From contig CAINDA010000044.1 of NCBI GenBank assembly GCA_903847205.1, forward strand, positions 186,001 through 250,000: a stretch of 64,000 bases of DNA, given 5' to 3'. The stretch is from an uncultured Bacteroidota bacterium (GTDB lineage: Bacteria; Bacteroidota; Bacteroidia; 2-12-FULL-35-15). The translations under genes were made by a program, and so were the position numbers. Every line of letters begins with the position of its first letter. The stretch's first letter is position 1. A model generated the notes under the pieces. It was given only the letters and a program-made list of their open reading frames with translations, was not told the origin of the DNA and ran no database searches. Below are positions 1-50,200 of this stretch, one piece after another.

Positions 1-578
1 TAATTGTTGATGATTTAGGCGGTTTAGAAGCTTATGATTATGCAACCCGACTCGGGCAAAAATGGGGGGTAGGGCAGAAAAAAGAAGATAACGGTATTGT
101 TATATTATTAAAGCCGACCCAGCCTCATGAATTATTTATAGCCCCCGGCTATGGCTTACAGGGCGCTATCCCAGACCTTACCACAAAGCAAATTCGTGAA
201 AACGAAATGAACCCGTATTTAAAAGCGGGGCAAAATTATACGGCTCTTGATAAAGGTACCGATGTTTTAATGTCGCTGTCTAAAGGCGAATACAACTCTG
301 ATGCTTACGGCAAAAAACATTCTAACAAAATGCCCGGCGCAGAATTTATCATTATAATAATTATCATCATCATATTTATTATAATGCGAGCAAGCAAAGG
401 AGGCAATGGCGGCGACAGAGGCGGCTTAAGTATGGGAACCGGTTTTTTCTTAGGTTCAATGTTCGGCTCTGGGTTTGGCGGAGGCGGAGGAAGCAGCAGC
501 AGCAGCGGAGATTCCGGAGGCTTCGGAGGTTTTGGAGGTGGCAGCTTTGGCGGCGGAGGTTCTGGCGGAAGCTGGTAA
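1..578 (+). CDS. TPM domain (YgcG-like) membrane protein, 5' partial
   Basis: The open frame enters from the left edge (frame of base 3) and stops at 576-578; the first internal ATG at 207 is not the real start. Visible residues give the second half of a TPM domain (PF04536; motifs RLGQKWGVGQ, NGIVILL, IAPGYGLQGAIPD), then a single hydrophobic segment made almost only of isoleucine (nt about 348-390), then a Gly/Ser-rich tail ending GGSGGSW. This is the usual YgcG/TPM layout: a periplasmic TPM domain that should follow a signal peptide lying outside the window, a membrane anchor and a low-complexity tail. TPM proteins have been linked to phosphatase activity and photosystem repair in plants, but the role of bacterial members is unclear. 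Family assignment is good; function is not inferred. Confidence 0.85.
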   Translation, partial: IVDDLGGLEAYDYATRLGQKWGVGQKKEDNGIVILLKPTQPHELFIAPGYGLQGAIPDLTTKQIRENEMNPYLKAGQNYTALDKGTDVLMSLSKGEYNSDAYGKKHSNKMPGAEFIIIIIIIIIFIIMRASKGGNGGDRGGLSMGTGFFLGSMFGSGFGGGGGSSSSSGDSGGFGGFGGGSFGGGGSGGSW

Positions 579-590
579 GTAAATAGTTAA

Positions 591-684
591 AAGTTTAAAG
601 TTTGAAAGTAAAAAAAAGAGTTCAGCCAGGGGTGAACTTTATACCATCCAACTTTTCAACTTTAAACTTTCTAACTTTAAACTT
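591..684. repeat. Intergenic inverted repeat with 19-bp arms
   Basis: Arms AAGTTTAAAGTTTGAAAGT (591-609) and its near-perfect inverse at 666-684 (one mismatch) flank the terminator hairpin between two convergent genes. In effect there are two nested hairpins. It may help stop transcription from both sides; no coding potential. Confidence 0.6.
610..638 (-). terminator. Rho-independent terminator of the MauE/thioredoxin gene
   Basis: AGTTCA (619-624) pairs with TGAACT (633-638) around an 8-base loop. Read on the minus strand the stem is followed by C and then a run of eight T, as expected for termination of the minus-strand gene that ends at 691. Confidence 0.6.
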
Positions 685-690
685 AAAAAA

Positions 691-1620
691 CTATTCTTTC
701 AGCCACTTTTCCAATTCACCCTGATCTAAATCCATATAATTAACATTATGCTCTACTGTGCTGTTATTTAACAGGTAAATAGCCGGCATATTTAATCCGG
801 CCAGATAAATAAAACTCCTTCCTAATAATATGCAATGCTGAATATCTTCTGTATGCGTATTTTCAAAAAAAGGTTTTAAATTTTCATCATCGCCATTAAG
901 GACAAAATAGAAGGGAATCTTAGGATTTCTTTCGCGAATGATCCTGATTTTATTCGCCGCAATACGGCAATGCGGACAAGTTAAGCTCATAAATGCAATT
1001 ACATGCTTTCCCTGCGAAAGCGTTTTGGGCGGAACGTTCAGTTTTGCATTATTGTAAAGAGAATCTAATTCAATTTTAAATTTATTTTCAGGTTTAGTAA
1101 GATATGCTTCTGAATAATCGAGCTCAACAGGATTAAGTATAAAAGGCATTGCAAACGATCCTGCTAAAAGCAGCGCATTAATAATTCTCAATTTCCCATT
1201 TAACTCCCAGCCCTTATGATTTTTGTATAAAATAAAAAATACAGCAAGCATGATGACATTTTTTATTAATGCCTCCAATGGCGTCATGCGAATATATGAG
1301 CCAAAACACCCGCAATTGCCTTTATTACCAGTAAAGAACATTAACAAAATGAGGTAGACGCAAAATACCAGTAATACTGCTATCCCTAATTTATATGCAA
1401 TTTTTCGAAGACTGATATTGAATAGAAGAAAAAATCCTATCAAAAATTCAAGGCCGATTAAAATACGTGCAATGAAGGGGGCTGCCTGCCAGTTAATAAT
1501 ACCAATATCTACAAAAGTATATTCGAAAGGCTCAATGGGATATAACTTGGTATATCCCGAAACAATAAAAACGGCACCTAAAAGGGAGCACAAAAAACCG
1601 AAAAATATTTTTTTTGACAT
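691..1620 (-). CDS. MauE/DoxX-family membrane protein fused to a thioredoxin-like domain
   Basis: 309 aa. Residues about 1-150 hold four hydrophobic segments with the DoxX/MauE pattern (SGYTKLYP near the N terminus, then GNKGNCGCFGSY, a conserved Cys pair between helices). After another helix near 145-162 the chain turns soluble and carries a thioredoxin/TlpA-like fold with the redox motif LTCPHC at about residues 213-218 and a cis-proline-like NMPAIYLL near 277-284. Family knowledge: MauE-type proteins pass reducing equivalents or keep periplasmic disulfides in order, so a membrane disulfide carrier joined to its own thioredoxin partner is likely. The CPHC motif differs from the CGPC/CPPC of common thioredoxins. 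Upstream is the terminator of the lipoprotein pair, so this gene probably has its own promoter. Substrate unknown. Confidence 0.8.
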   Translation of the reverse strand: MSKKIFFGFLCSLLGAVFIVSGYTKLYPIEPFEYTFVDIGIINWQAAPFIARILIGLEFLIGFFLLFNISLRKIAYKLGIAVLLVFCVYLILLMFFTGNKGNCGCFGSYIRMTPLEALIKNVIMLAVFFILYKNHKGWELNGKLRIINALLLAGSFAMPFILNPVELDYSEAYLTKPENKFKIELDSLYNNAKLNVPPKTLSQGKHVIAFMSLTCPHCRIAANKIRIIRERNPKIPFYFVLNGDDENLKPFFENTHTEDIQHCILLGRSFIYLAGLNMPAIYLLNNSTVEHNVNYMDLDQGELEKWLKE

Positions 1621-1642
1621 TCGTTAAGATGTGTATAAAATA

Positions 1643-1674
1643 AAAAAGCGCCTCTCCAAAGAAAGGCGCTTTTT
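1643..1674 (-). terminator. Rho-independent terminator after the twin lipoprotein genes
   Basis: Perfect 11-bp arms AAAAAGCGCCT (1643-1653) and AGGCGCTTTTT (1664-1674) with a 10-base loop and T-rich ends on both strands. It sits just downstream of the minus-strand lipoprotein gene ending at 1692. Confidence 0.8.
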
Positions 1675-1691
1675 AATAAATAATCAAATGA

Positions 1692-1952
1692 TTATTTTAA
1701 TGAGCATGTTCTTGTTGTGGTATAAGTAACAGCCACACCCAATATAGTTGTAGTGCCCGTCACTGTAGCATTTAAACACTTTGATTCTGCTTGACTTGCT
1801 GTTGCTTTGTTATAAGTTATAATCTGTGGATCACTTGTTTGTGTCTGTCCATTAGAAACAGTCACATCCGTACAGGTACAAACGCGGTCCTTTTTGCATG
1901 AAGCAAAAGAAAAAGCTGTAGTTACTGCAACAAATAAAATTACTTTTTTCAT
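1692..1952 (-). CDS. Small lipoprotein, paralog of the next gene upstream
   Basis: 86 aa. MKK start, hydrophobic stretch and lipobox FASC with Cys at residue 19, so it should be cut and lipidated. The mature part starts CKKDRVCTC and is rich in Thr/Ser with four further Cys (two in VCTC, plus KCLNA and RTCSLK). Such small Cys-rich lipoproteins are common in Bacteroidota and have no known function. It lies 31 bp downstream of a gene with the same signal peptide and the same CKKDRVCTC start, so the two are almost surely tandem duplicates in one transcript. The extra ~15 residues relative to the paralog are in the Thr/Gln-rich middle. Confidence 0.75.
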   Translation of the reverse strand: MKKVILFVAVTTAFSFASCKKDRVCTCTDVTVSNGQTQTSDPQIITYNKATASQAESKCLNATVTGTTTILGVAVTYTTTRTCSLK

Positions 1953-1983
1953 TTTTTTAAAATTTTTAATTAATTAAAATAAT

Positions 1984-2199
1984 TTATTTTAAAGTGCAGG
2001 TTGTTGTTGATGTTACTCCGTTAGAAGTTTCAGTAGAACTCAAACATGCTGCATTAGCAGGTCCGCTTTTAGATGCAGTGTAAGTTACTACAGTTGTTCC
2101 GCCGCCTGGACTAGTAACACAAGTGCAAACACGGTCTTTTTTGCAAGAAGCAAGAGAAAATGCAGAAACTACTGCAGCAAATAAAATAACTTTTTTCAT
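1984..2199 (-). CDS. Small lipoprotein, first of a tandem pair
   Basis: 71 aa. Signal peptide MKKVILFAAVVSAFSLASC with the lipobox Cys at residue 19, mature start CKKDRVCTC, then a Gly/Thr stretch, and two more Cys near the end (AACLSS, TTCTLK). It matches its downstream neighbour at both ends: signal peptide, CKKDRVCTC and the C-terminal T(R)TCSLK/TTCTLK. The Cys arrangement suggests a small disulfide-held domain on the periplasmic or outer face of a membrane. A promoter-like sequence lies 45 bp upstream. Function unknown. Confidence 0.75.
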   Translation of the reverse strand: MKKVILFAAVVSAFSLASCKKDRVCTCVTSPGGGTTVVTYTASKSGPANAACLSSTETSNGVTSTTTCTLK

Positions 2200-2244
2200 T
2201 TTTTTATAGTTTTAGGGGTTAATTATTTTTGGTAATTACGGGTG

Positions 2245-2274
2245 CAAACTTAATACTAAAATTCAAATGACAAA
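2245..2274 (-). promoter_or_regulatory. Bacteroidota-type promoter for the lipoprotein pair
   Basis: Minus strand reads TTTG (2274-2271), 18-bp spacer, TAAGTTTG (2252-2245), matching the TTTG...TAnnTTTG consensus. The spacer is one base shorter than the usual 19-20. A start site near 2238 would give a leader of about 40 nt before the ATG at 2199. Confidence 0.45.
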
Positions 2275-2575
2275 AAATAATTTTATAGTTTGATGATTTT
2301 CGGATTATACGATAGGCTGATTCAATGAGGAATTAATCTGATAACCAATTTATTAGTTCTCAAATTATTAAGTAAGTATATTCGCTTACTAAGCTGATGA
2401 TTATGAAATAATGTCACTCATCTGTCTTTTTTGCTATGATTTTTCTATTCAGCAGGCTCAATAAACGTTTTTTTTGCAAATCGGCAATGAATTTGTTAAT
2501 TTTTAAACTCATTACCTTTTGTATCATTATTAATTGCCCTCCGCTAAAATAGATTTGCCACACACACAATAATAA
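2275..2575. other. Non-coding stretch leading into the 21-bp array
   Basis: No convincing gene on either strand. AT-rich. From about 2530 there are two degenerate, out-of-phase copies resembling the downstream 21-bp unit (for example CCGCTAAAATAGATT at 2541-2555), and a short CA run at 2560-2567. Confidence 0.5.
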
Positions 2576-2773
2576 ATTAAGCCTTTGCCGAAATAAATTA
2601 AGGCTTCGCTAAAATAAATTAAGCCTTGGCTAAAATAAATCTAGCCTTCACCGAAATAGATTAAGCCTTCGCTGGAATAAATCAAGCCTTTGCTGAAATA
2701 GATTAAGCCTTTGCTAAAATAAATCAAGCCTTCAAAGAAATAAATCAAGCCTAATCAAAAATAATTAAGCCTT
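2576..2773. repeat. Intergenic array of nine 21-bp repeats (type 1)
   Basis: Nine full units plus a partial one start at 2576, 2597, 2618, 2639, 2660, 2681, 2702, 2723 and 2744, each exactly 21 bp with no indels. A typical unit is ATTAAGCCTTTGCTAAAATA plus A; changes are mostly C/T and A/G substitutions. Read on the minus strand, one frame encodes the heptapeptide GLIYFSK/E over and over and is broken by only one stop, in unit 4. There is no start codon with a ribosome site, so I do not call a gene. It lies in the 743-bp gap between the lipoprotein promoter and the sigma-factor operon terminator. Confidence 0.85.
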
Positions 2774-2886
2774 ATTTTTTTGACTGTTATAATTTTATCA
2801 GGTAATTTCCAATAAAAAGGCTTTTAATGGCTCTAAAAACAATAAATGTCTATTAAATTTTAAATATTAATCGGTCGACAATAAAA

Positions 2887-2922
2887 AAAATCCTTCAGCC
2901 GAATAATCAGCTGAAGGATTTT
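2887..2922 (-). terminator. Rho-independent terminator of the sigma-factor operon
   Basis: Perfect 13-bp stem, AAAATCCTTCAGC (2887-2899) with its inverse (2910-2922), a 10-base loop and T runs beyond both arms. It lies 20 bp past the stop of the minus-strand membrane protein gene. Confidence 0.85.
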
Positions 2923-2942
2923 CAATTTTTTTTAACCTACTT

Positions 2943-3308
2943 TTAATTTGCAGGCTCTTTCTTTTGAGGCTCTTCCCACATCCATGATTTGTTGCCGCAT
3001 CTGTTTTTAAACTTTTCCTTTTCTTCAGGTGTCATATTTGCAATGCGTTCCTGCATACGTTGTTTCCAATGCTCACGGCGGCTACCGCAGTGTCCGCCCC
3101 TGCCGAATCTGCCGCGGAAACCTCCGAACAGAATTTTAGACAACACCAAAAGCCCAATGGTCTGGCAGAAGCTGATAACCGGGCCGTGAAAGAGCTCCGG
3201 CACCAGCATGTTCCATAAATGCATTGTTAAAAAGCCAAACAAAAAGCCGAAGAATATAACTGCAGCTGCGATTTTAATCGCCTTAAAAATTCTAAATTTC
3301 TTATTCAT
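2943..3308 (-). CDS. Small membrane protein with charged C-terminal tail, partner of a sigma factor
   Basis: 121 aa. Two hydrophobic segments (about residues 10-32 and 44-62) are followed by an Arg/Gly/His-rich linker (GFRGRFGRGGHCG) and a strongly charged helical tail with RMQERIANMTPEEKEKFKNR. The TPEE(K/R)EKFK pattern is reminiscent of Spy/CpxP-like LTxxQ helices, but that is only a resemblance. The start lies 12 bp after the sigma-factor stop and the pair shares one terminator, so they are co-transcribed. This order, sigma factor then small membrane protein, suggests an anti-sigma or envelope-sensing role, which I infer from context only. Confidence 0.7.
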   Translation of the reverse strand: MNKKFRIFKAIKIAAAVIFFGFLFGFLTMHLWNMLVPELFHGPVISFCQTIGLLVLSKILFGGFRGRFGRGGHCGSRREHWKQRMQERIANMTPEEKEKFKNRCGNKSWMWEEPQKKEPAN

Positions 3309-3320
3309 GATTTCTTTTTT

Positions 3321-3896
3321 TTAATAGGTTAATAATTCGTTATACAGGCTTTTCAAGCGCTCCTTCAGATACATTACTGCATACCGCTTTCGCGAGATAA
3401 CAGTTTTTATTCCGGTGCCGGTAATCTCCGCAATTTCTTTCAGGCTTCTGCCCTCTAGTTCGTGAAGTACAAACACTTCTCTTTGGTTATCGGGCAGTTC
3501 TTCCAGCGCTTCTGTTAACTCCTGAGAAATGAGTTTCAAAAAAAGCTGTTTGTCTGCCGTCGTTTCCATCGATGGAAGTATATCAGCAAGCAATAATGCT
3601 TCGTCATCATCCTGACGGTTTACAGAAATATCATCTAATCTAACTGGTTTCATTTTGCGGTACCAATCTGTTATTTTATTTCGTGCAACCCTGTACAGCC
3701 ATGATGCAGTATTTTCAACAGCATTGCTCTGCACCAGTTCATAAAAGACATCCTGCAGAATGTCTTCCGCATCCTCTAATGCAGGGATGCGGTTATTGAT
3801 GAAAGCTAAAAGACTCCTTCTTTCCTTTTTTATGGTACTGGTCAGAGATTCGTCTTTTTGAATGCTGCCGGCATTATATTGCGCTTGTGCTGCCAT
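3321..3896 (-). CDS. ECF-type RNA polymerase sigma factor
   Basis: 191 aa, normal length for an ECF sigma factor. Region 2 is at about residues 30-90 (ALEDAEDILQDVFYELVQ, then ASWLYRVARNKITDWYRK, the -10 binding part). Region 4 is at about 125-185 (LEELPDNQREVFVLHELEGR, then SLKEIAEITGTGIKTVISRK, the helix-turn-helix that reads the -35). It is first in a two-gene operon with a small membrane protein that could hold it at the membrane. Regulon unknown; I see no shared upstream motif that would show autoregulation. Confidence 0.9.
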   Translation of the reverse strand: MAAQAQYNAGSIQKDESLTSTIKKERRSLLAFINNRIPALEDAEDILQDVFYELVQSNAVENTASWLYRVARNKITDWYRKMKPVRLDDISVNRQDDDEALLLADILPSMETTADKQLFLKLISQELTEALEELPDNQREVFVLHELEGRSLKEIAEITGTGIKTVISRKRYAVMYLKERLKSLYNELLTY

Positions 3897-4417
3897 GTGT
3901 ATTTATAAAGACGAATGAAAAGGCTAAATACTTTAAAAAAAATGAATTTTATTTTGATGCCTGAATTTTATCAGCAGGAAAGAGTTGGATCTGCGACCTT
4001 TCCAATTCATTGCAGAAGCCTCCAGTATTGTCATCCAGAGCTTTTCGCGAAGGATCTTTTCTTTCACCCTGACATTGCTGATGATTAAGAAAGTCCCAAC
4101 TCCTGAGCAAAATGAACGGGACAAATATCTCCATTTATCTTAATCATAACAAAACCTGTGAGGTTATTTAACCTGACAGGCTTTGTTTGAATATTTCAAA
4201 AATAAAAAACGCCCTGCAATAACCTAAATTATCAGCAGGGCGTTAAACCATGGGTGGCGGTTTTTATATTCAGATGCGTATTTTTAATAAAGGTTGCATT
4301 TGATTAAAAGAAGGAAAAATATCAGGAAATTTTATTTTGAGGAACAAACTTTATTTTCCGGAAGGAATATTTATTAAGCATTACAGGACAATGATGACGG
4401 CCGTTTTATAATAAAAA
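3897..4417. other. Intergenic region without a convincing gene
   Basis: 521 bp. Two overlapping short frames at 3933-4134 on the minus strand have no family resemblance and no supporting start signals. The stretch 3960-4135 reads like a dispersed Bacteroidota intergenic element (GGATCTTTTCTTTCACCCTG near 4052) rather than a gene, but I cannot test copy number here. A terminator lies at 4208-4244. Confidence 0.4.
4208..4244 (-). terminator. Terminator downstream of the 1054-aa T9SS gene
   Basis: Arms AACGCCCTGC (4208-4217) and GCAGGGCGTT (4235-4244), loop 17 bases, followed on the minus strand by six T. It is 174 bp past the stop codon at 4418, rather far, but no other gene lies between. Confidence 0.65.
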
Positions 4418-7400
4418 TTAATTATCTTTTACTAACTGCAGGAATCCTTGCTTTTTAATTGCTTCCCCATTCACAGCAGTCACTTTCACAATATAAAAAT
4501 AAACGCCGTCCTGAGCCATTTTACCGCTTTTTGTCCGTCCGTCCCAGCCGCCGTTAAGAGTGTTCCATTCAGTCATTTTTATTCCCCATCGGTCGTAAAT
4601 TGTGCAGTCTAAGTCTTTAACGGCAGTGGTTGTAATAAAAAACAAATCGTTTTTTCCATCGCCGTTAGGCGTAAATATATTCGGGATAATAATTGAAACA
4701 TCATTTGTAACAGTAATGCAGTTATCAACGGAATCAATACATCCAACCATATTTTGAACAAATAATTTAATACAGTAAGTACCGGCATCGGTATAGGTGT
4801 GAGATGGCGCCGGGTTTGATGAAATATTATTCCCGCCAGACGATTGATCTCCGAAATTCCATAAGGACGAATTGCTGTTTACTGATGCATTCGTAAAAGA
4901 TACATCAGTGTTAGCTATAACAATATCAGAAGGAGCAACAGAGAAATTTGCAATCGGTTTTGGAACTATTGTAATCATATTATTGTTTACAGCAGTTCCA
5001 GTGCAATTATTCACATCCGTACAGGAAATGCTTACTGAATAGGTCCCTGCCTGATTATAACAATGCAGCGGTGATGATGTTATGGCAGAATCGCCGTCGC
5101 CGAAATGATACTTCACCGAGCTGCAATTTGTTCCATTGCTTTCGGCAAATTGGATACACAGCGGGAAACAGCCGCTGTTTGTGTTGGATGTAAAGGCTGG
5201 AGAAGGCCGCGGATTTACTGTTTCTATTATAGCATTAGATGCTGCCGGAGATCCCAATACACATGGGGCATTTGAAGTAAGAATGCAAGTAATTGCATCA
5301 CCATTATTTAGTGCCGAACTGCTGTAAACAGAGGAATTACCGCCGGTATTTATTCCATTTAACTGCCATTGATATACAGGTGTGTTCCCCCCATTTACAG
5401 GCACTGCAGTAAAAGTAACTGATGTGCCGGCGCATATTGGACCTAATGGAACAGATGTAATTGTTACAGATGCCGAGGTGCTTGGCGTAACTGATACAAC
5501 AATAGGGTTTGATATTACAGATGTTCCCGCTGCACAGCCTGAATTAGGGGTAAGCATACAGGTTATAGTATCGCTGTTAATTAATGAAGCACTTGTAAAC
5601 ACAGCAGCATTTGTGCCGACTGTATTTCCATTCAAGAGCCAATGATAAAGAGGCGCTGTTCCTCCATTAGTCTGAGCTGCAGCAAATGTTACTGAGGTTC
5701 CGGGACATACCGCCCCTGCAGGATTTGATGTAATATTTATTGATGCGGTGCTTGGCAGCACCGTAACAACTACCGGAATTCTATATGTTCCGGGACACAA
5801 ACCGGCATAGTAAGTTGTTGTTGAAGTCAAACCAGGTATTCTCAACGTATCCGTTCCAATTACAGTGCCTCCTGTCTGTGCGCTGTACCAAGTGAGAACA
5901 GCTGGAATAGCTCCGTTTATGGAGGCAGTAAGCACAGCAGAATCCCCAGAACAAATAGTAACGCTGGCTGCAGAAATAGTATCTATCCGTACAATAGTCT
6001 GGTTAACTAAGCCTGCACCACCTTTGGTAGCGCCGTTTGGAATAAATTCGGTTAATCCATCTGAGTTTGTTGTTCCGCAGCTTCCGCCGGAAGCAGTCTG
6101 CACAGCTGAACCTGAGCTAAGTGCTATATACCCTCCTCCTCCTCCGCCGCCAGGGCCTTCGGCTTCATTCATAGCTCCAAAATATAATGAACCGCGCGTC
6201 AGCATTTGATTACCGCCATGTCCGCCTTTAGCGCTTAATACAATTCCATTCTGTCCAGAAGTATTAAGCAGTATTGTTCCGCCTCCCCCTCCGCCTCCGG
6301 ATCCATCTCTGCCGCTGTAGCTGCTGATTGGAGGCGAAGAATATGAATTCCCTCCGTGAAGCCCATCTGAAATAATAGAATCAGTGCCGCTTCCGGTAAC
6401 AGATCCATAAGAAGTAAAGTAAATGATTCCGCCGCCTGCACCGCCTGCACCGCCTTCGTTGTTATCCTGCTCTCCGCCGCCGCCGCCGCCGCCCATAAAA
6501 ATCCTGCCGCTGGTATAATCCAGCGGACGCCCGCCTAAACCGCCGATATTAAGCCTTGCATAACCGCCCCAGGCTAGATCATAAGGACCTACAACTAACG
6601 CATTTTGATTTGAACCCGAAAAAGTATATCCGCCTCTGCCTCCTCCTGATGAAGAAGAATAAGCAAATCCGGGAGATTCAATGTTCCATGCTGTAATCCA
6701 GCCAGGAACAGTGGTATCAGGATTTCCCTGCCCTGTCCATGACGGAATTGAACCGGCATTTGCTCCCCCGCCGCCACCTGCGTTCCAGATATTACCGCCG
6801 CCGCCGGCATTGGCTGCTGCACCCCGGCAGAATTTTCCTCCGTAAATTGTGTAATCATTGTCGAACCCTGCAATACCCTCACCTTTATTAGCAGCAACTT
6901 CAATGCTGGTGCAGGAATACCATACAATTTGAGACCTTGGAGCTGAAGGCGTAAATAATGCAGCCCCCCTAAAGCCTTTGCCGGATGCGCTTATCTTACC
7001 GCCGCTATTTATTACCGTATTTCCTTTTACCTCAACTGCCAAAACACCTCCGGTAGTTCCATTCCAGACCTGACAGGTTAATACGCCAGGAAAAGCAATT
7101 GTTAATGCGTTGTATCTCGGCACACGCACAATCTGTACTTTCCCGGAAACGGTATAATCATTTATTAATCCGCAGTCTATTGTAATAGAAGAACCATTAG
7201 GAACAGCTGACACCTGACACAATTCATATTTTCCGCAGTTATTATAATTGGTTACGCTGCCCCAAGTAGCATCGTTTGGATTGCTGATTGTCGGCGTTGC
7301 TGTATCTGAATGCCCGAGTATCACAGCTCCCTGCATCTGAATAACCATAATTAAATCGCCGGGGGAAAGACTGCCCGAAAAACGCCCGTTTGCATTTAGG

Positions 7401-7582
7401 CCGCTGGCTGAAACACTCAGGGAAGTATTGCCGATTGATGCATCAGCAGTTAAAGAAGTATATTCATTTATAATCCGGTTTGCAGTATTAATATTCCCGT
7501 TGCCGTCTTTCCCGCGCTGAGCGGAGGAAACAAAGGCACAGAAAACAAAAACGATAAACAGATAGTTTTGAATCTTTTTCAT
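4418..7582 (-). CDS. Glycine-rich secreted protein with Ig/PKD domains and CHU_C (type B T9SS) end
   Basis: I start at the ATG at 7582, which gives signal peptide MKKIQNYLFIVFVFCAFVSS followed by AQ; an in-frame ATG ten codons upstream would spoil it. Length 1054 aa. Order: N-terminal beta-rich region; glycine-rich low-complexity stretch (residues about 200-520, many G5-G7 runs such as GGGGGGGE); three Ig-like modules of the 'CSGDSAVLTA / CPGTSVTF / CAGTSVTF' kind; two PKD domains (HFGDGDSAI and WNFGDQSSGG); final 90 residues NIFTPNGDGKNDLFF ... IYDRWG ... WDGRTKSGK ... DGVYFYIVKV, the gliding motility-associated C-terminal domain. Family knowledge says this end sends the protein through T9SS to the cell surface. 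It is probably a surface adhesin or matrix protein; ligand unknown. No T9SS component gene adjoins it. Confidence 0.88.
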   Translation of the reverse strand: MKKIQNYLFIVFVFCAFVSSAQRGKDGNGNINTANRIINEYTSLTADASIGNTSLSVSASGLNANGRFSGSLSPGDLIMVIQMQGAVILGHSDTATPTISNPNDATWGSVTNYNNCGKYELCQVSAVPNGSSITIDCGLINDYTVSGKVQIVRVPRYNALTIAFPGVLTCQVWNGTTGGVLAVEVKGNTVINSGGKISASGKGFRGAALFTPSAPRSQIVWYSCTSIEVAANKGEGIAGFDNDYTIYGGKFCRGAAANAGGGGNIWNAGGGGGANAGSIPSWTGQGNPDTTVPGWITAWNIESPGFAYSSSSGGGRGGYTFSGSNQNALVVGPYDLAWGGYARLNIGGLGGRPLDYTSGRIFMGGGGGGGEQDNNEGGAGGAGGGIIYFTSYGSVTGSGTDSIISDGLHGGNSYSSPPISSYSGRDGSGGGGGGGTILLNTSGQNGIVLSAKGGHGGNQMLTRGSLYFGAMNEAEGPGGGGGGGYIALSSGSAVQTASGGSCGTTNSDGLTEFIPNGATKGGAGLVNQTIVRIDTISAASVTICSGDSAVLTASINGAIPAVLTWYSAQTGGTVIGTDTLRIPGLTSTTTYYAGLCPGTYRIPVVVTVLPSTASINITSNPAGAVCPGTSVTFAAAQTNGGTAPLYHWLLNGNTVGTNAAVFTSASLINSDTITCMLTPNSGCAAGTSVISNPIVVSVTPSTSASVTITSVPLGPICAGTSVTFTAVPVNGGNTPVYQWQLNGINTGGNSSVYSSSALNNGDAITCILTSNAPCVLGSPAASNAIIETVNPRPSPAFTSNTNSGCFPLCIQFAESNGTNCSSVKYHFGDGDSAITSSPLHCYNQAGTYSVSISCTDVNNCTGTAVNNNMITIVPKPIANFSVAPSDIVIANTDVSFTNASVNSNSSLWNFGDQSSGGNNISSNPAPSHTYTDAGTYCIKLFVQNMVGCIDSVDNCITVTNDVSIIIPNIFTPNGDGKNDLFFITTTAVKDLDCTIYDRWGIKMTEWNTLNGGWDGRTKSGKMAQDGVYFYIVKVTAVNGEAIKKQGFLQLVKDN

Positions 7583-7737
7583 GCGTACTTTAAAAATAAA
7601 CCTCACCTTCAATAAAACCGGTCGCCAATGTAGAGTTTAATATTGATTTTTACAATTGATGCCGACAGATATATGAAGTATGATTCAGCAGATGTTAATT
7701 TTGATGGAAGAGTTGCGCATGGCTGCTTATCGATCGC
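7583..7737. other. Short leader region before the 21-bp array
   Basis: No gene. It should contain the promoter for the minus-strand T9SS gene, but I found no good TTTG/TAnnTTTG pair. Confidence 0.3.
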
Positions 7738-8151
7738 TTATTAGCTAATCGAATAGGTTTATTGGCTAATCCAATGACCTAATAAGCTAATCCCATTGGT
7801 TTATTAGCTAATCGAATGAGGTTATTAGTTAATCTTGTCGGTTCATTAGCTAATCCAATGGCCTTATTGGTTAATCGAATAGGTTTATAGGCTAATCTTA
7901 TTGCTTTATTAGCTAATCCTCTTGCCTTATTAGCTAATCGAATGGATTTATTAGCCAATCCAATTACTTTATTAGCTAATCCGATGAGTTTATTGGCTAA
8001 TCTATCATGCTTAATAGCTAATCGAATGAGCTTATTAGCTAATCCTTTTGGTTTATTAGCTGATCGAATGACTTTATTAGCTAATCAAATAGCTTTATTA
8101 GCTGATCCAATGAGTTTATTGGCTAATCTATCATGTTTATTAAACTTATAG
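7738..8151. repeat. Intergenic array of nineteen 21-bp repeats (type 2)
   Basis: Units run from 7738 in exact 21-bp steps to about 8136 (19 copies), then a partial copy to 8151, with no indels. The core is TTATTAGCTAATC followed by eight more variable bases (gaatgagt, caatgagt, cttttggt). In the plus frame this reads as heptapeptides LLANPMS / LLANRMT. The frame is open from 7942 to 8151, but in-frame stops break it upstream (TAATAA near 7777 and TAG near 7888). There is no ribosome site at 7942. It differs in sequence from the 2576-2773 array but has the same 21-bp period. Confidence 0.88.
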
Positions 8152-8191
8152 GTAGCAACTTGAATTAATTAAATCGCTGAAAAATTTGTTT

Positions 8192-8223
8192 TTTGTTTTA
8201 AAAGAAAATACCCTGTATATTTG
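8192..8223 (+). promoter_or_regulatory. Promoter of the polysaccharide locus
   Basis: TTTG (8192-8195), 20-bp spacer, TATATTTG (8216-8223): an exact match to the Bacteroidota housekeeping consensus. A start site near 8230 gives a leader of about 35 nt to the first ATG at 8265. Confidence 0.7.
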
Positions 8224-8264
8224 GACACTTTAAAAATTTTAATAATCAATAAAATAAAACAATT

Positions 8265-9422
8265 ATGGCCATTAATGTATTTGTCCCAACTTTTAGAATA
8301 GATGAAATATTACAAGAAATTAGGATTTGCCTAGAGAAAGGCTGGACAGGCCTTGGTTTTAAAACAGTTGAATTTGAAAATAAATGGAAAGAATATACTG
8401 GCTTGCCAAATGCTCACTTTCTTACTTCAAATACAGTTGGGTTGCACTTAGCTGTTCATATATTAAAAAAGAAATTCGGATGGAATGATGGTGACGAAAT
8501 TATTACCACTCCACTGACTTTTGTTTCAACAAATCATGCAATCATGTATGAAAATTTAAAACCAATTTTTGCTGATGTCGATGATACGCTTTGTTTAAGC
8601 CCTGAATCAGTAGAGGCAAGAATTACATCGAAGACTCGCGCTGTAATGTATGTTGGTATTGGCGGAAATACCGGTCAATATGAAAAAATAATTGCAATTT
8701 GCAAAAAAAGAAACATTAAACTGATTCTTGATGCTGCACATATGTCAGGTACTTTTTTTAAAGGAAAGCATATAGGGCAGGAATCCGATGTTTCAATTTT
8801 TAGTTATCAGGCAGTTAAAAACTTGCCTACTTCGGATTCTGGAATGATTTGTTTTGCAGACGCAGAACTGGATAAACTTGCCCGTCAATTGAGCTGGCTG
8901 GGTATAAATAAAGATACATTTCAAAGATTTCAGGGCAAAGAGGGAGGTTACAGATGGAAATATGATGTGGAGAATGTGGGCTTTAAGTATCATGGAAATT
9001 CTATCCAAGCGGCAATGGCTTTGGTTCAGATAAAATATCTGGATGAAGATAATAACTATAGAAATCAATTGGCTTCCATTTATGACGATCTGTTAAAAGA
9101 TACGCCAGAAGTGGAGGTGGTTAAAGTGGCAGAAAATTGCCAAAGTTCACGCCATTTATACCAGGTATTTGTAAAAAAACGTGATGAAATTATTCAGCAT
9201 TTTTATGATAATGATATTTTTCCGGGCGTTCATTACATTGATAATACGGAGTATTCAATGTATGCTTATGGCAGTGGCACCTGTCCCAATGCTGCACGTA
9301 GATCAAATGAAATAATATCACTACCACTTCATTTGAAATTGAAAAAAGAAGATTGCATACTAATTGTTGGTGTTTTAAAATCCGGTATTGCAAAATTTTT
9401 GAAAAATAAAAGCCTTGTTTAA
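8265..9422 (+). CDS. DegT/DnrJ/EryC1/StrS-family PLP sugar aminotransferase
   Basis: 385 aa, normal for the family. Family signs: TSNTVGLHLAVHIL for cofactor phosphate binding (about 54-67), EIITTPLTFVSTNHAI (78-93), the Asp that holds the pyridine nitrogen in LILDAAH (D156), and the Schiff-base lysine in SYQAVKNLPTSDSG (K185). These enzymes transfer an amino group, usually from glutamate, to a keto-sugar nucleotide. It therefore supplies an amino sugar for the polysaccharide made by this locus. First gene after the promoter; a GTG-start flippase gene follows 20 bp later. QAVKNLPTSDSG differs a little from the common HPxKxxTTGEGG, so the substrate cannot be named. Confidence 0.88.
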   Translation: MAINVFVPTFRIDEILQEIRICLEKGWTGLGFKTVEFENKWKEYTGLPNAHFLTSNTVGLHLAVHILKKKFGWNDGDEIITTPLTFVSTNHAIMYENLKPIFADVDDTLCLSPESVEARITSKTRAVMYVGIGGNTGQYEKIIAICKKRNIKLILDAAHMSGTFFKGKHIGQESDVSIFSYQAVKNLPTSDSGMICFADAELDKLARQLSWLGINKDTFQRFQGKEGGYRWKYDVENVGFKYHGNSIQAAMALVQIKYLDEDNNYRNQLASIYDDLLKDTPEVEVVKVAENCQSSRHLYQVFVKKRDEIIQHFYDNDIFPGVHYIDNTEYSMYAYGSGTCPNAARRSNEIISLPLHLKLKKEDCILIVGVLKSGIAKFLKNKSLV

Positions 9423-9442
9423 AAAAGCCCAAATTAAATAAA

Positions 9443-10981
9443 GTGAGTAGCTTAGTTAAATCGACTATTATTGTTACTATATTAAATGGAGTTGGCTTGT
9501 GCTTGGGATTTCTGAGTAATTTGGTAATTGCGGCCAAGTTTGGTGCCGGTCGCGAAATGGATATTTATCTTGCAGCTACCGCCTTACCGCTTTTTGTTAC
9601 CTCTATTCTTTCTGGTTCGCTAAGTATGACTTTTATTCCAGTATTTGCAGAATATAGGAATAAAGACATTTCTGAAACGTGGAAAATTGTAAGTACGTTT
9701 ATAAATATAAGTGTTATTACAACTTCAATTTTAACTTTCATTGGGATTTTTTTTGCCAATTCAATAATGAAATTATTGGCTCCTGGTTTCACGGGAGAAA
9801 AAATTGCAGTTTCAGCTAATTTACTTTGCTGGTTAATGCCTACAATAATTTTGGCTGTAATTAACGAGTTAATGTCAAGTGTTTATTATTCTAACAATAG
9901 TTTTGTTATTCCTTTATTCAATAAAATTATTAATCCATTAATCACAATGATTTATGTTTTAATATTTTCCTTCTCTTTAAGCACCAAAAGTTTGGTGTTT
10001 GCTTCATTAACAGCTATGTTTATACAAACATTATTATTGGGAATTGGTTTTGTGCGTAATAAAGAATTTTTTTATTCGTTCATTTTAAAATACAAACATC
10101 CCGCAGTTTTAAAAATTATCAAGTTGATGTTGCCATTAATTGTCGGCATGATTATTTATAGAGCTATTCCATTGTTTGACAGATTTATAGCCTCTAGTCT
10201 GCCCGATGGCAGTATTTCTTATCTCGGTTATTCTTCTAAAATTTATTTTTTGCTTACAGGAATAATTACTTCAGGGATTTCACTTTCTTTGTTCCCATTA
10301 ATGTCAAAATTGGCTGCTGAAAACAATATAGTTTTACTTAAACAAAATATGTCGAAGGGAATTCGCTTTTTGTTTTTTTTAAGTATCCCAATAACTTGTA
10401 TATTCGGAATTTACAGTAAAGAGATTGTTCAATTATTATTTGAACGAGGAGCATTTCATAACCAGGATACAACATTTACGTCTATTGCTTTATCAATATA
10501 CTTAATGGCTTTACCAGTTGCTTCCATTGGTACAATTGTCGCACAGGGGTATTATGTATTGCAAGATACAAGGACTCCTGCAATTATTGGCGTTCTTGAA
10601 GTTTTTATCTATATCGGATTGGCATTTTTGTTATTGCCATTATTTGGTTTTTTATCGATACCGCTGACCTTCGTGTGCTATTTTTATATTTCTATGATAA
10701 ATGGTTTAATCGTTCGCAAAAAATTAGGAGGAACTGGAGGACAAAAAATTTTACACTCATTTTTGCAGCACACACTTATAGCAGTTATAGCAACAATTAT
10801 AATTTTTTACCCTATATGCCTTTTTTCAAATCTGATAATAAAAAATATATTTATAGCTTTAGGATTTATTTTGTATCTGATTTTAAGCAAATATATTTTA
10901 AAATCCAAAGAGTCATTATTGATATGGGAAAAATTAGTTGTCAATGGGCTTCGTAAAATAATTGCTTCTAAAAATACTTGA
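9443..10981 (+). CDS. MurJ/MviN-family lipid-linked oligosaccharide flippase
   Basis: 512 aa with about 14 hydrophobic segments, starting at GTG. The N terminus has the MVF-family signature: NLVIAAKFGAGREMDIYLAA, then ATALPLFVTSILSGSLSMTF and IPVFAEYR. A second copy of the pattern occurs near residue 330 (LLFERGAFHNQDTTFTSIAL). MurJ flips lipid II, but members inside polysaccharide clusters are thought to export the lipid-linked repeat unit in place of a Wzx protein. Position between the aminotransferase and glycosyltransferases favours the second role. I give no gene symbol because whether this is the cell's lipid II flippase cannot be told from this window. Confidence 0.8.
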   Translation: MSSLVKSTIIVTILNGVGLCLGFLSNLVIAAKFGAGREMDIYLAATALPLFVTSILSGSLSMTFIPVFAEYRNKDISETWKIVSTFINISVITTSILTFIGIFFANSIMKLLAPGFTGEKIAVSANLLCWLMPTIILAVINELMSSVYYSNNSFVIPLFNKIINPLITMIYVLIFSFSLSTKSLVFASLTAMFIQTLLLGIGFVRNKEFFYSFILKYKHPAVLKIIKLMLPLIVGMIIYRAIPLFDRFIASSLPDGSISYLGYSSKIYFLLTGIITSGISLSLFPLMSKLAAENNIVLLKQNMSKGIRFLFFLSIPITCIFGIYSKEIVQLLFERGAFHNQDTTFTSIALSIYLMALPVASIGTIVAQGYYVLQDTRTPAIIGVLEVFIYIGLAFLLLPLFGFLSIPLTFVCYFYISMINGLIVRKKLGGTGGQKILHSFLQHTLIAVIATIIIFYPICLFSNLIIKNIFIALGFILYLILSKYILKSKESLLIWEKLVVNGLRKIIASKNT

Positions 10982-10984
10982 TTT

Positions 10985-11563
10985 ATGAAAAAATTTACAA
11001 GAGAGGAATTACAAAAATTAACAAAAAATAATTCGGGGAAAGTTAATGTTGATTTAGGTTGCGGTGCTCGTAAGCGAGAAGGGTATATTGGTTTAGACTC
11101 AGCATCTTTAGAAGGGGTGGATATTGTATGTAATATCGAAGAGGGTTTACCTTTTGAAGATAATTCAATTGATGAAATCTGGTCAAGTTTTATGTTTGAA
11201 CACGTTTCAAATCCAATTTTTTTATTTCAGGAATTATTTCGAATATGTAAAAACGATGCAATAATTGAATTTAGAGTTCCATATTATCAGTCGATTTCTC
11301 AATATAAAGATCCCACACATAAAACGATAATCACTCCCGAAACAATGCAATATTTTACCAATGATAAATGGTATGGGTCAGATTATGGAATCAATACAAA
11401 TTTCAAAATGCTTAATGTTGAGTATGAGTATTTTCCGCCTTTTGTTAGGGTGAACCGGATTTTCATTACAAAAATTTTAATATATCCTTTTATGGTTTTT
11501 GCCAGAAGGTTTTTATGGAATGTAGTGCATAATATTACAATTAAAATGCAGGTGATTAAATGA
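10985..11563 (+). CDS. Class I SAM-dependent methyltransferase
   Basis: 192 aa. Motif I VNVDLGCGARKREGYIGLD (about 20-38) binds S-adenosylmethionine. A motif II-like acidic residue ends GVDIVC, and LPFEDNSIDEIWSSFMFEHV (56-75) is the usual post-motif region of the Methyltransf_11 group. It starts 3 bp after the flippase stop and overlaps the next gene by 4 bp (ATGA), so it is tightly coupled in the operon. Likely it methylates a sugar or the end of a glycan chain, which in some O-antigens sets chain length, but the substrate is not evident. Confidence 0.82.
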   Translation: MKKFTREELQKLTKNNSGKVNVDLGCGARKREGYIGLDSASLEGVDIVCNIEEGLPFEDNSIDEIWSSFMFEHVSNPIFLFQELFRICKNDAIIEFRVPYYQSISQYKDPTHKTIITPETMQYFTNDKWYGSDYGINTNFKMLNVEYEYFPPFVRVNRIFITKILIYPFMVFARRFLWNVVHNITIKMQVIK

Positions 11564-12639
11564 AAATTCTTTTTTTTACATTAGGCAATGAACTTGTTGC
11601 AAGTAGCCGTACCCGTGTTTTTCAATACCTTCCCCATTTAAGAAACAAAGGGGTTGTTTGTAAAATTATTCAATACCAAAGTGGATTTGATTATTGGTTG
11701 CTCAGCAATTTCAAAAAAGAAACAATATTTCAAAAAATTATTTTTGCAGTTTTGTTTAAAGGGCTAGGCATTTTCCATTTTTTCTATTCTTTTTTTGCGG
11801 CTATGCGGTTAATTGTGCTTGCAAAAAAGTATGATATATTATTTATCCAAAAGGCATTGCCACCTGTTTGGGTGCAAAAAATAGTATTTAGGAGAAACTC
11901 TAGAATAGTTTTTGATTTCGATGATGCTATATATGCAAATGAAGCTGCATATGATGTAGAACGATTTAATTTTATGTGTTCATGTATAAAACTTGCTGTT
12001 ATTGAAAATGAAAGCACAGAAACTTACATGAATTCAAAAGGCATAAAAACGCTTAAAATTACAGGTCCTATTGATTGTGGGAGATATAAACCAAAAACAA
12101 ATTTAACAAACTCTCCGGCTATTACTATTGGCTGGATTGGCAGTGGCTCAACCACAGGATTTCTTCAATTGATTGAAAAGGCATTGAAGCAGATTTCCAA
12201 AAAATATCCAAATGTGGTAATAAATTTTATTGGCTCTTCAGGTTTTAAGATAGATGAATGCCGTATTGTTTCAGAAAAATGGTCGCTTGAAACAGAAGTG
12301 CAATTGCTCGAGAAATTTGATATTGGAATAATGCCTCTGCCAGATAACGAATGGACACGTGGTAAGGGCGGATATAAAATTTTGCAGTATATGGCAATGG
12401 GTATTCCCAGTATTGCATCTCCTGTTGGTGTTAATAAAGAAATCATTATTCAAAATGAAACAGGCATTCTTGCCGAATCAGAAGAGGAATGGTTGACTGC
12501 TTTTGAAAAATTGATTACAGAACATGATTTAAGTATTCAACTAGGAAATAATGCAAGAATTCGTGCGAAAAATAACTATTCTTTTGCAGCCAGTACTCCG
12601 GTTTTATTAGATGCAATCAGGAAGTTGATATTGGCTTAA
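11560..12639 (+). CDS. Glycosyltransferase, GT4-like (GT-B fold)
   Basis: 359 aa. N-terminal Rossmann half MKILFFTLGNELVASSRTRV; then RIVFDFDDAIYANE (about 112-125), typical of a sub-group of GT4 enzymes; C-terminal half with ITIGWIGSGSTTGFLQ and the donor-binding region EKFDIGIMPLPDNEWTRGKG, then GIPSIASPVGVNKEII. It overlaps the methyltransferase stop by 4 bp. It should add one sugar from a nucleotide donor to the growing lipid-linked unit on the cytoplasmic side. Which sugar cannot be read from sequence. Confidence 0.85.
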   Translation: MKILFFTLGNELVASSRTRVFQYLPHLRNKGVVCKIIQYQSGFDYWLLSNFKKETIFQKIIFAVLFKGLGIFHFFYSFFAAMRLIVLAKKYDILFIQKALPPVWVQKIVFRRNSRIVFDFDDAIYANEAAYDVERFNFMCSCIKLAVIENESTETYMNSKGIKTLKITGPIDCGRYKPKTNLTNSPAITIGWIGSGSTTGFLQLIEKALKQISKKYPNVVINFIGSSGFKIDECRIVSEKWSLETEVQLLEKFDIGIMPLPDNEWTRGKGGYKILQYMAMGIPSIASPVGVNKEIIIQNETGILAESEEEWLTAFEKLITEHDLSIQLGNNARIRAKNNYSFAASTPVLLDAIRKLILA

Positions 12640-47200: not shown

Positions 47201-50200
47201 TGCAGCTATTTGCAGTTAATGTATAAACATAAGTAACATTTATCGGCGCCGCTGTTATGTTAGTAAGGGCTTCCAGCGGATTACCGGTTCCTGTGCCGGC
47301 AATATTACTAATACCAGCTATTGCAGCTCTCGTCCATGCAAATGAAGTACCTGCTGTTAAACTAGTTGGCAAGTAACTGAATGTGGTACCGCTGCATATT
47401 GCTGGAGGCGCTAAACCACTTGTCAATAAAGGAACAGGATACACCGTAACAACAACACTTGAAGTTGAAGGATTTGTGCAGCTGTTGGCAGTTATTGTAT
47501 AAATGTAAGTAACATTCACCGGCGCTGTTGATGTGTTGGTCAGCGTTTCATTTGGATTGCCTGCTCCACCGCCTGCTATGTTACTGATTCCAATGACAGC
47601 AGCTCTAGTCCACGCGAACGTCGCACCTATAGTTGAACTTGCAGGAGGATAATTGAAAGAGGTTCCACTGCATATTGCTGAAGGAGTAAGCGTGCTGGTT
47701 AATGCCGGAGTTGGATTTACAGCAACAACTACACCGTATGTCGCAGCATTTGTACAGCCGTTTGATGATACAGTATAATCATAAGTAACGTTTATCGGAG
47801 CTGGTGTTGTATTGGTCAGCACTTCGTTCGGATTAGCAGTACCGCTTGCAAGAATATTGCTGATACCTGGTACTACAGCTCTTGTCCATGAGAAAACAGT
47901 ACTTCCTATTGTGCTTGTTGGTGTGTAACTGAAAGCTGAACCGCTACAGATTGCAGGAGGCGACAAACTGCTTGTTAATGCTGGGGTAAGATTTACTGTA
48001 ACAACTACTTGATAAGTGGATGGATTAGTACATCCATTCGCTGCAACAGTATAAACATAAGTTACATTAATTGGAGCAAGTGTTGTATTATTAAGTACTT
48101 CGTTTGGATTACCGGAACCGCTTCCTGCAATATTGCTGATACCCGCAACTGTTGCTCTAGTCCATGTTAACACCGCACCTAAAGTTGAACTAGTAGGTGA
48201 ATAGCTGAATGCTGAACCGCTGCATATTGCAGGAGGGGCAAGACTGCTTGTTAATAATGGTGTCGGATTCACCGTTACAAGTACATTAAATGTTGCGGGA
48301 TTGGTGCAAGTATTGGCAGAAACTGTATAAACGTAAGTAACAGTTATAGGCGCAGTAGTCGTATTAATAAGTGTTTCGTTAGGATTGGCAGAACCGCTTC
48401 CGGCAAGATTGCTTATTCCAGCAACCACAGCTCTTGTATAAGTAAACACAGCACCAGCTGTTGCACTTAGAGGAGTGTAATTGAATGCAGTATTATTACA
48501 GATTGCAGGAGGCGAAAGAGTACTGCTTAATGCAGGTGTAGGATTTACTAAAACAACTACTGGATATGTTGTCGCACTATTACAGCCGTTGGCAGAAACC
48601 GAATAAATATAAGTTACACTTATAGGAGCAGATGTTGTATTTATAAGTGTTTCGCTTGGATTCCCAGCGCCGGATCCGCCAATATTGCTTATACCAGGAA
48701 CAGCAGCTCGTGTCCATGCAAATGCTGCACCCGGAGTAGGACTTGTAGGTGAATAATTAAAAACACCATTACTGCAAATTGCCGGAGGAGATAAACTGCT
48801 GTTTAAGGTTGGTGTTTGATTTACAGAAACTACTACGTTATACGTTGAAGCATTCACACATCCATTTGCTGTTACCGTATATACATAAGTAACATTCACT
48901 GGAAGAGAAGTGGTATTGTTTAGTACTTCGTTTGGATTTCCAGGTCCGCTGCCAGCTAAATTACTGATACCTGCAACTACAGCTCGTGTCCATCCAAAAG
49001 TTGCTCCAATTGTTGCACTTGCCGGGGTATAACTGAATGCTGTTCCGCTGCAGATTGCCGGGGGTGCTAAAGTACTTGTTAATCCAGGAGTCGGGTTGAC
49101 AACAACAACAACATTGTAAGGAATTGCGTTTGCACATGAATTAGCCGTAAGAGAGTAAACGTAAGTAACACTTATTGGGTCAGTTGTTGTATTGGTAAGT
49201 ATTTCAGACGGATTTCCAGTACCTCCGCTGCCGATATTGGTGATTCCTGCAACTGCAGCTCTGGTCCAAGAAAAAACTGTGCCTCCTGTGCCGCTTGAAG
49301 GTGTATAATTGAATGCCGTTCCGCTGCAGATTGCCGGAGGAAGAAGACTGCTTGTTAATAATGGTTTCGGGAATACAGTAACTATAACATTATAGTTGCT
49401 CACATTAGTACAGCCATTTGCAGCTACAACATATACGTAAGTAACATTCACAGAAGATGCCACTGTGTTAACCAGAACTTCATTAGGATCTCCTGTACCG
49501 CTTCCGGCAGTATTACTAATGCCTAGAATCGCAGCTCTGCTCCAAGTCAATGTAGCGCCAAGTGTTGCACTAGTAGGAGTATAATTGAATGTACTTCCGC
49601 TGCATATTGCGGGCGGAGTCAAGCTGCTGCTTAAGGTTGGTGTTGTATTTATGGAAAGAATTACATTATAGGTTAACGGGTTTATACAGCCATTTGCTGC
49701 AACAGTATAAACATACGTAACATTAACTGCAGATGTTGTAGTATTTATAAGCGTTTCATTCGGATTGCCAGAACCGCTTCCCACTCCATTACTAATACCA
49801 GCTACAACGCCCCTTGTCCATGTCATAGTTGCACCAGAAGTTGGGCTGGTAGGTGTATAATTGAAAGGTGAGCCACTGCAAACTGCAGACGGCGACAAAG
49901 TGCTGCTTAATGTCGGTGTTGGATTTACGACCAGACTGACATTTTGATTATTACTGCAGCCATTTGAAGTGGTAGAGAAAATGTATGTAACATTTACCGG
50001 AGCTGCAGTTGTATTAATAAGTGTTTCATTCGGGTTATTTGTACCGCTTGCAGCGATATTAGTTATACCGGCCACTGCGGCGCGAGACCAGGCAAATAAT
50101 GCTCCTGCTGTTGCACTTGTCGGCGCATAGCTGAATACTGTGTTGCTGCATACTGCAGGAGGAGACAAGCTGCTGCTTAAAGTAGGCGAGAATTTCACAG

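Follow-up and report, generated by a model that had tools for sequence, protein, structure and literature searches.

Bacterial VNTR and MLVA minisatellites are loci at which unit length usually varies from one locus to the next within a genome. The arrays described here are likewise non-coding tandem repeats whose changes come in whole units, but differ in that one unit length dominates the genome. Iterons and phased operator arrays offer a second parallel, being direct repeats of ~21 bp presented on one helical face; iterons share one sequence that is read by one initiator, whereas the sequences of the present arrays differ from one to the next and the arrays adjoin unrelated genes. The nearest described case that we have found is BrickBuilt of Porphyromonas gingivalis, reported as a 23-nt spacerless minisatellite inside a MITE; its 19 intergenic loci have in common a unit, leader and tail as well as IS5-like terminal inverted repeats, it is not translated, and it is confined to one species and a close relative (PMC4596501). 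Tandem repeats of 22 and 41 nt are mentioned there as well (PMC4596501). The resemblance to the present arrays is considerable, both being spacerless repeats of about two helical turns in Bacteroidota that are intergenic, untranslated and found at many loci per genome, but BrickBuilt has one unit with leader, tail and terminal inverted repeats, whereas here only the 21-bp length is common and the units and flanks are mostly unrelated. A literature search made largely among papers open without subscription found no description of one period common to many unrelated arrays in a bacterium.

We describe here a 21-bp array, array 1, in the window, which is the whole 64,000-nucleotide stretch of DNA analysed, and the set of arrays of the same period to which it belongs in its own genome (G000), that of an uncultured Bacteroidota bacterium, and in its genus.

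Results

Structure and setting of array 1

Array 1 (7738..8142, no strand assigned) consists of 19 full 21-bp units (7738-8136) with the consensus TTATTAGCTAATCCAATGGGT and a partial twentieth unit, TTATTA (8137-8142). Tandem Repeats Finder (TRF) reports 7738-8128 with a period of 21, 18.6 copies and 0% indels, and the identity at lag 21 is 0.698, vs 0.286 (sd 0.023, maximum 0.360) in 500 dinucleotide shuffles. Columns 1-13 (TTATTAGCTAATC) are nearly fixed, with 15 of the 73 mismatches to consensus, and contain the 10-bp palindrome ATTAGCTAAT; the other 58 fall in the variable columns 14-21. A contiguous eight-column block as extreme as this is rare under column shuffling (p=0.0015; p=0.043 for singletons), while the same test on the other 14 arrays pooled gives a weak signal (p=0.023). 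The unit matrix and unit list also carry the trace of a higher-order duplication of six units (126 bp) at 7969..8136 on the plus strand, where the units at 7969 and 7990 reappear at 8095 and 8116 (19/21 and 20/21 identical). A preliminary description of this DNA had claimed nineteen indel-free 21-bp repeats varying in the last eight bases of each unit, and both TRF and the in-register unit list bear this out; its span of 7738-8151 is right at the start and overshoots the end by ~9 bp. Array 1 is thus built of head-to-tail units within the ~10-100 bp range whose copies keep register, and it is non-coding and intergenic, as a bacterial intergenic minisatellite is.

The array sits in a 652-bp divergent gap. 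To its left, and transcribed away from it, is a gene for a secreted PKD/CHU_C protein with a type IX secretion signal (4418..7612, minus strand), the N-terminal half of which is found in 29 of 36 genus genomes, its own included (E<=1e-20). To its right is a DegT/DnrJ/EryC1 aminotransferase gene (8265..9422, plus strand) that opens a polysaccharide cluster continuing with a MurJ-like flippase, a methyltransferase, a glycosyltransferase and an epimerase; at E<=1e-60 the DegT gene matches only its own genome among the 36 and none of the 35 other congeners. Since most genomes of the genus have the left neighbour and the DegT gene has no congener match, the cluster looks lineage-specific. A candidate promoter, TTTG-N20-TATATTTG (8192..8223, plus strand), lies ahead of the DegT gene as a match to the Bacteroidota-type consensus. 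It starts 50 bp after the array ends at 8142 and 41 bp after 8151, the latter being the distance first proposed. At the far end of the window, a 7560-aa ORF (41211-63893) with internal repeats of ~276-282 bp (TRF 47693-48993, 61467-63443) has the looks of a giant repeat surface protein.

Searches of window positions 1-12000 against Rfam returned no known RNA, and array 1 with its flanks had no match among phage and plasmid sequences. Predicted RNA folding of the array is strong (z -5.4 on the plus strand, -3.9 on the minus strand), which we do not accept as a sign of RNA function, since tandem repetition of a palindromic core is enough by itself to give good folding.

Coding and bending

All six reading frames of array 1 are interrupted: across the 19 units the plus frame has three stops, one minus frame two, and the other four frames 18-34. 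Over 17 arrays the frames are no more open than those of column-shuffled arrays, and synonymous changes, compared at the codon level, show no excess (194 vs about 209 expected, row totals summed). The frame-keeping and synonymous bias of a repeat-protein gene are therefore missing, and the earlier suggestion of a decaying repeat ORF finds no support. Phased bent DNA, offered with it, fares no better, in that array 1 is poor in A-tracts (4 vs 27.6 expected from shuffles) and has none of the helically phased series on which such bending would depend; A-tract bending is rejected for this array. What does hold from the preliminary description is the broader alternative of a DNA-level, 21-bp-phased element beside the promoter, array 1 being non-coding.

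A genome-wide set of 21-bp arrays

The search for further 21-bp arrays that had been recommended found many. The sample of G000 comprised 40 stretches of 20 kb plus the window (864 kb, about 16% of the draft), and 19 array loci are listed in it, with periods of 21, its multiples or near-multiples. A uniform detector applied to the same 864 kb finds 18 non-coding period-21 segments in 16 loci, and at other periods between 14 and 35 only two at 16, one at 22, three at 24 and three at 32; listed loci outside its set are the 41-bp and 42-bp arrays (L019, L022) and a short diverged array (L192). In a lag scan, 27 regions stand out at lag 21 vs 2-9 at other lags below 42, and the periods given by TRF and autocorrelation are 21, 41, 42, 62, 83, 84 and 105. 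A second sample, placed without regard to prior hits, held 7 arrays in 400 kb (6 by the uniform detector). Extrapolated to the whole genome, the second sample scales to ~80-100 arrays and the 19 loci in 864 kb to ~120, giving an estimate of ~80-120. Adjacent 16-bp tandem arrays at L033 (1769-2010 and 2652-2736, unit AATTCTCCGGTCGTAA) are an exception to the 21-bp rule in this genome.

Comparison of the units and 600-bp flanks of the 19 loci shows them to be mostly unrelated. No second array in G000 has the core of array 1, there is no unit common to many loci, and leaders or tails with terminal inverted repeats of the BrickBuilt type are absent. Extended flank similarity occurs only in a three-locus family, with short matches elsewhere. 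This family includes array 2 of the window (2571..2773, no strand assigned), whose unit, AATAAATTAAGCCTTCGCTGA, differs from that of array 1, and its relatives at C24:149171-149307 and C14:26697-26875. The C24 and C14 relatives have ~500 bp of flank in common at 70% identity, so that in this one case an array was copied along with its neighbourhood. Repeats at L024 12790-12999 (G000) and L154 18154-18315 (congener G033) carry a CCCCCTTC/GAAGGGGG or CCCCTCTCC/GGAGAGGGG inverted repeat, and may represent a palindromic element dispersed in the genus.

Within the non-coding arrays, units depart from their own consensus by 6-23%. Two-copy 21-bp duplications of normal complexity outside arrays number none in the 864 kb and six in 1.316 Mb of congeners; the arrays appear long or not at all, and there is no pool of young duplications.

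Placement, symmetry and constraint

Gene calls around the arrays are ORF-based, and placement was scored for the 15 of 19 loci with both neighbours callable (L018, L022, L203 and L211 were dropped). Eight of these lie in divergent gaps, six in co-directional gaps and one in a convergent gap, and since divergent gaps make up 17% of intergenic bases the bias is marked (p=0.0015; p 0.001-0.011 with gap edges excluded). The neighbouring genes are diverse, including infB and a histidine kinase, a TonB receptor, UbiD, an AbiJ-like gene, ABC and OmpA. At L016 (9205-11115) a gene with an AbiJ_NTD4 domain adjoins two abutting arrays (21 and 42 bp, with different units) in one divergent gap.

Some units contain clear palindromes, namely ATTAGCTAAT in array 1 and ATTGTTTCAAACAAT, GGGGACTCCCC and others elsewhere. 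With 8000 intergenic 21-mers as background, palindromes are significantly in excess (p=0.002 for 15 own arrays, 0.0008 with three congener arrays), although array 1 taken alone gives p=0.115; a column-shuffle dyad test gave p=2e-7 but is lenient, and we use the intergenic background. Private changes are not concentrated in otherwise variable columns (12 arrays, combined p about 1), a pattern not expected if unit columns were generally under constraint.

Congeners

None of 35 congeners has an array similar to array 1, and similar DNA is limited to one 27-bp match in G032; TRF finds no array where G032 and G034 have weak matches (27 and 33 bp). The uniform detector returned no non-coding 21-bp arrays in 1,315,661 bp of 12 congeners. 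The nearest congeners by rpoB are G008 (87%) and G018 (86%), and 367 kb of G018 contained no 21-bp arrays. Across 80 loci of a GTDB scan (1.39 Mb, mostly Bacteroidota), a TRF-based scan found one 71-bp stretch of 21-bp repeat (L078) and a later lag scan none at 21.

Three congener 21-bp arrays with different units were met in short loci fetched for other reasons, two in G019 (L064 1933-2087; L243 1107-1291) and one in G034 (L247 978-1181). A stricter filter keeps only L243 as non-coding; we judge L064 and L247 to be probably non-coding as well, because several frames are open at once. Two of the three lie downstream of infB, as in G000, such that an array is found there in 3 of the 27 genomes for which 1.5 kb beyond the gene is available, with differing units; as G000 was picked for its array, the independent count is 2 of 26. 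G019 and G034 fall in another clade of the infB tree than G000, and the three arrays speak against a burst private to one species. The unit of L247, downstream of infB in G034, is a near-perfect 21-bp palindrome, CTCAATACGTCACGTATGGAG, and this locus and L033 have the clearest dyads of the array set.

Discussion

The reading that we prefer, with moderate confidence, is that array 1 belongs to the non-coding minisatellites of intergenic DNA and is one product of a patchy burst of array formation governed by a ruler of two helical turns and tolerated in long, especially divergent, gaps. A process present in only some lineages of the genus would duplicate local DNA in 21-bp steps, the ruler being either an enzyme or selection that lets through only insertions in phase with the helix. 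The arrays would then grow and be homogenised in register, through slippage or unequal exchange by some multiple of 21 bp, yielding higher-order repeats of 42, 63, 84, 105 and 126 bp, and would persist where an insertion does little harm, as in gaps that are long and, most of all, divergent. With 10.5 bp to the helical turn, no integral number of base pairs below 21 completes whole turns, and insertions of 21n bp therefore keep promoters and their upstream sites in phase.

Several observations argue for such a burst. There are 18 period-21 segments vs at most three at any other period, and none in the samples of 12 congeners; units and flanks are mostly unrelated, higher-order periods of 42, 63, 84 and 105 occur, there is no coding signal, divergent gaps are favoured, and no general constraint on the units is seen, which fits units under no constraint. 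The near-neutrality of the arrays, like the ruler and the mode of growth, is our inference. Against it stands the absence of two-copy intermediates, which steady slippage should leave; such an absence makes steady slippage less likely than bursts or than a preferential survival of long arrays. The conserved core of array 1 and the mild palindrome enrichment also count against the reading, both being hints of function, the arrays beside infB in three genomes hint at a preference for certain sites, and the enzyme searches described below yielded no candidate for the ruler.

A more specific version, which we put forward tentatively and regard as rather unlikely, is that some members of the genus carry an unrecognised activity that writes DNA to a fixed 21-bp ruler, building arrays in bursts from any sequence present at preferred intergenic sites. 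It is prompted by the occurrence of array-bearing genomes in different infB clades, the lack of two-copy intermediates, and the infB-gap arrays with different units in three genomes. A survey of candidate ruler enzymes (Y1 transposase, Piwi, reverse transcriptase) found no fitting family. Argonaute as a 21-nt ruler is rejected, Piwi occurring in one of the 36 genomes (G034) and not in G000; reverse transcriptase occurs in G000 (4) and G019 (2) and is absent from G034; and Y1_Tnp counts are unrelated to array content (2 in G000, 5 in G019 and 5 in G034, compared with 5 in G018 and 11 in G001).

The alternative that survives best is that the arrays are functional platforms for protein binding, in which cores, often palindromic and repeated every 21 bp on one helical face, would recruit polymerising or DNA-bridging dimers, with copy number tuning the neighbouring promoter and possible roles in silencing, insulation between divergent promoters or chromosome organisation. 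The whole-turn period, the palindrome excess, the divergent-gap bias, the conserved core of array 1 and the absence of short intermediates are all consistent with this. However, the units differ between arrays, so one sequence-specific protein cannot read them all; notable palindromes occur in only about a third, with array 1 itself unexceptional, no constraint is detected over 12 arrays, the neighbouring genes are of many kinds, and near relatives lack arrays in the stretches sampled. We consider a platform of this kind possible, with the odds clearly against it. Less probable still, and in our view distinctly so, are mobile minisatellites of the BrickBuilt or MITE sort, which a transposase would spread within elements bounded by terminal inverted repeats: the P. 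gingivalis precedent and the three-locus family (window 2571, C24 and C14), with its common unit and some common flank, point that way, but the core of array 1 is not met in any other array of the genome, most arrays have neither their unit nor their flanks in common, and Y1_Tnp counts do not track array content.

An artefact, either of the G000 assembly or through loss of arrays from congener assemblies, is very improbable. Contig C24 begins inside a 42-bp array, from which it follows that arrays can break assemblies, and several congener assemblies are fragmented; however, units 6-23% off consensus are assemblable and unlike a copying artefact, and congeners in few contigs (G014 about 7, G017 about 10, G018 about 50) are also array-free where sampled. 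A decaying or real repeat protein with a LLANPMS-like heptapeptide unit has the least likelihood of all, for although 21 bp is seven codons, array 1 has only three stops in its plus frame and ORFs of 113-250 aa cross several other arrays, column-shuffled arrays are equally open, synonymous changes are not in excess, and the peptides are mutually unrelated between arrays, often with several frames open simultaneously.

Returning to the two-turn burst, the common 21-bp period points to a ruler and not to a special feature of the promoter beside array 1. The array is nothing special to the capsule locus, since sequence-unrelated arrays of the same period adjoin unrelated genes elsewhere in the genome, and any effect it may have on the polysaccharide promoter would probably go no further than shifting upstream DNA nearer or farther by whole helical turns. 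Were slippage the source of the tandem repeats, a wide variety of unit lengths would be expected; dozens of unrelated arrays with a two-turn unit suggest instead that DNA length is being measured, either at birth or by selection. How bacterial minisatellites originate thereby becomes a testable question, and next to divergent promoters the arrays supply natural spacers in helical phase.
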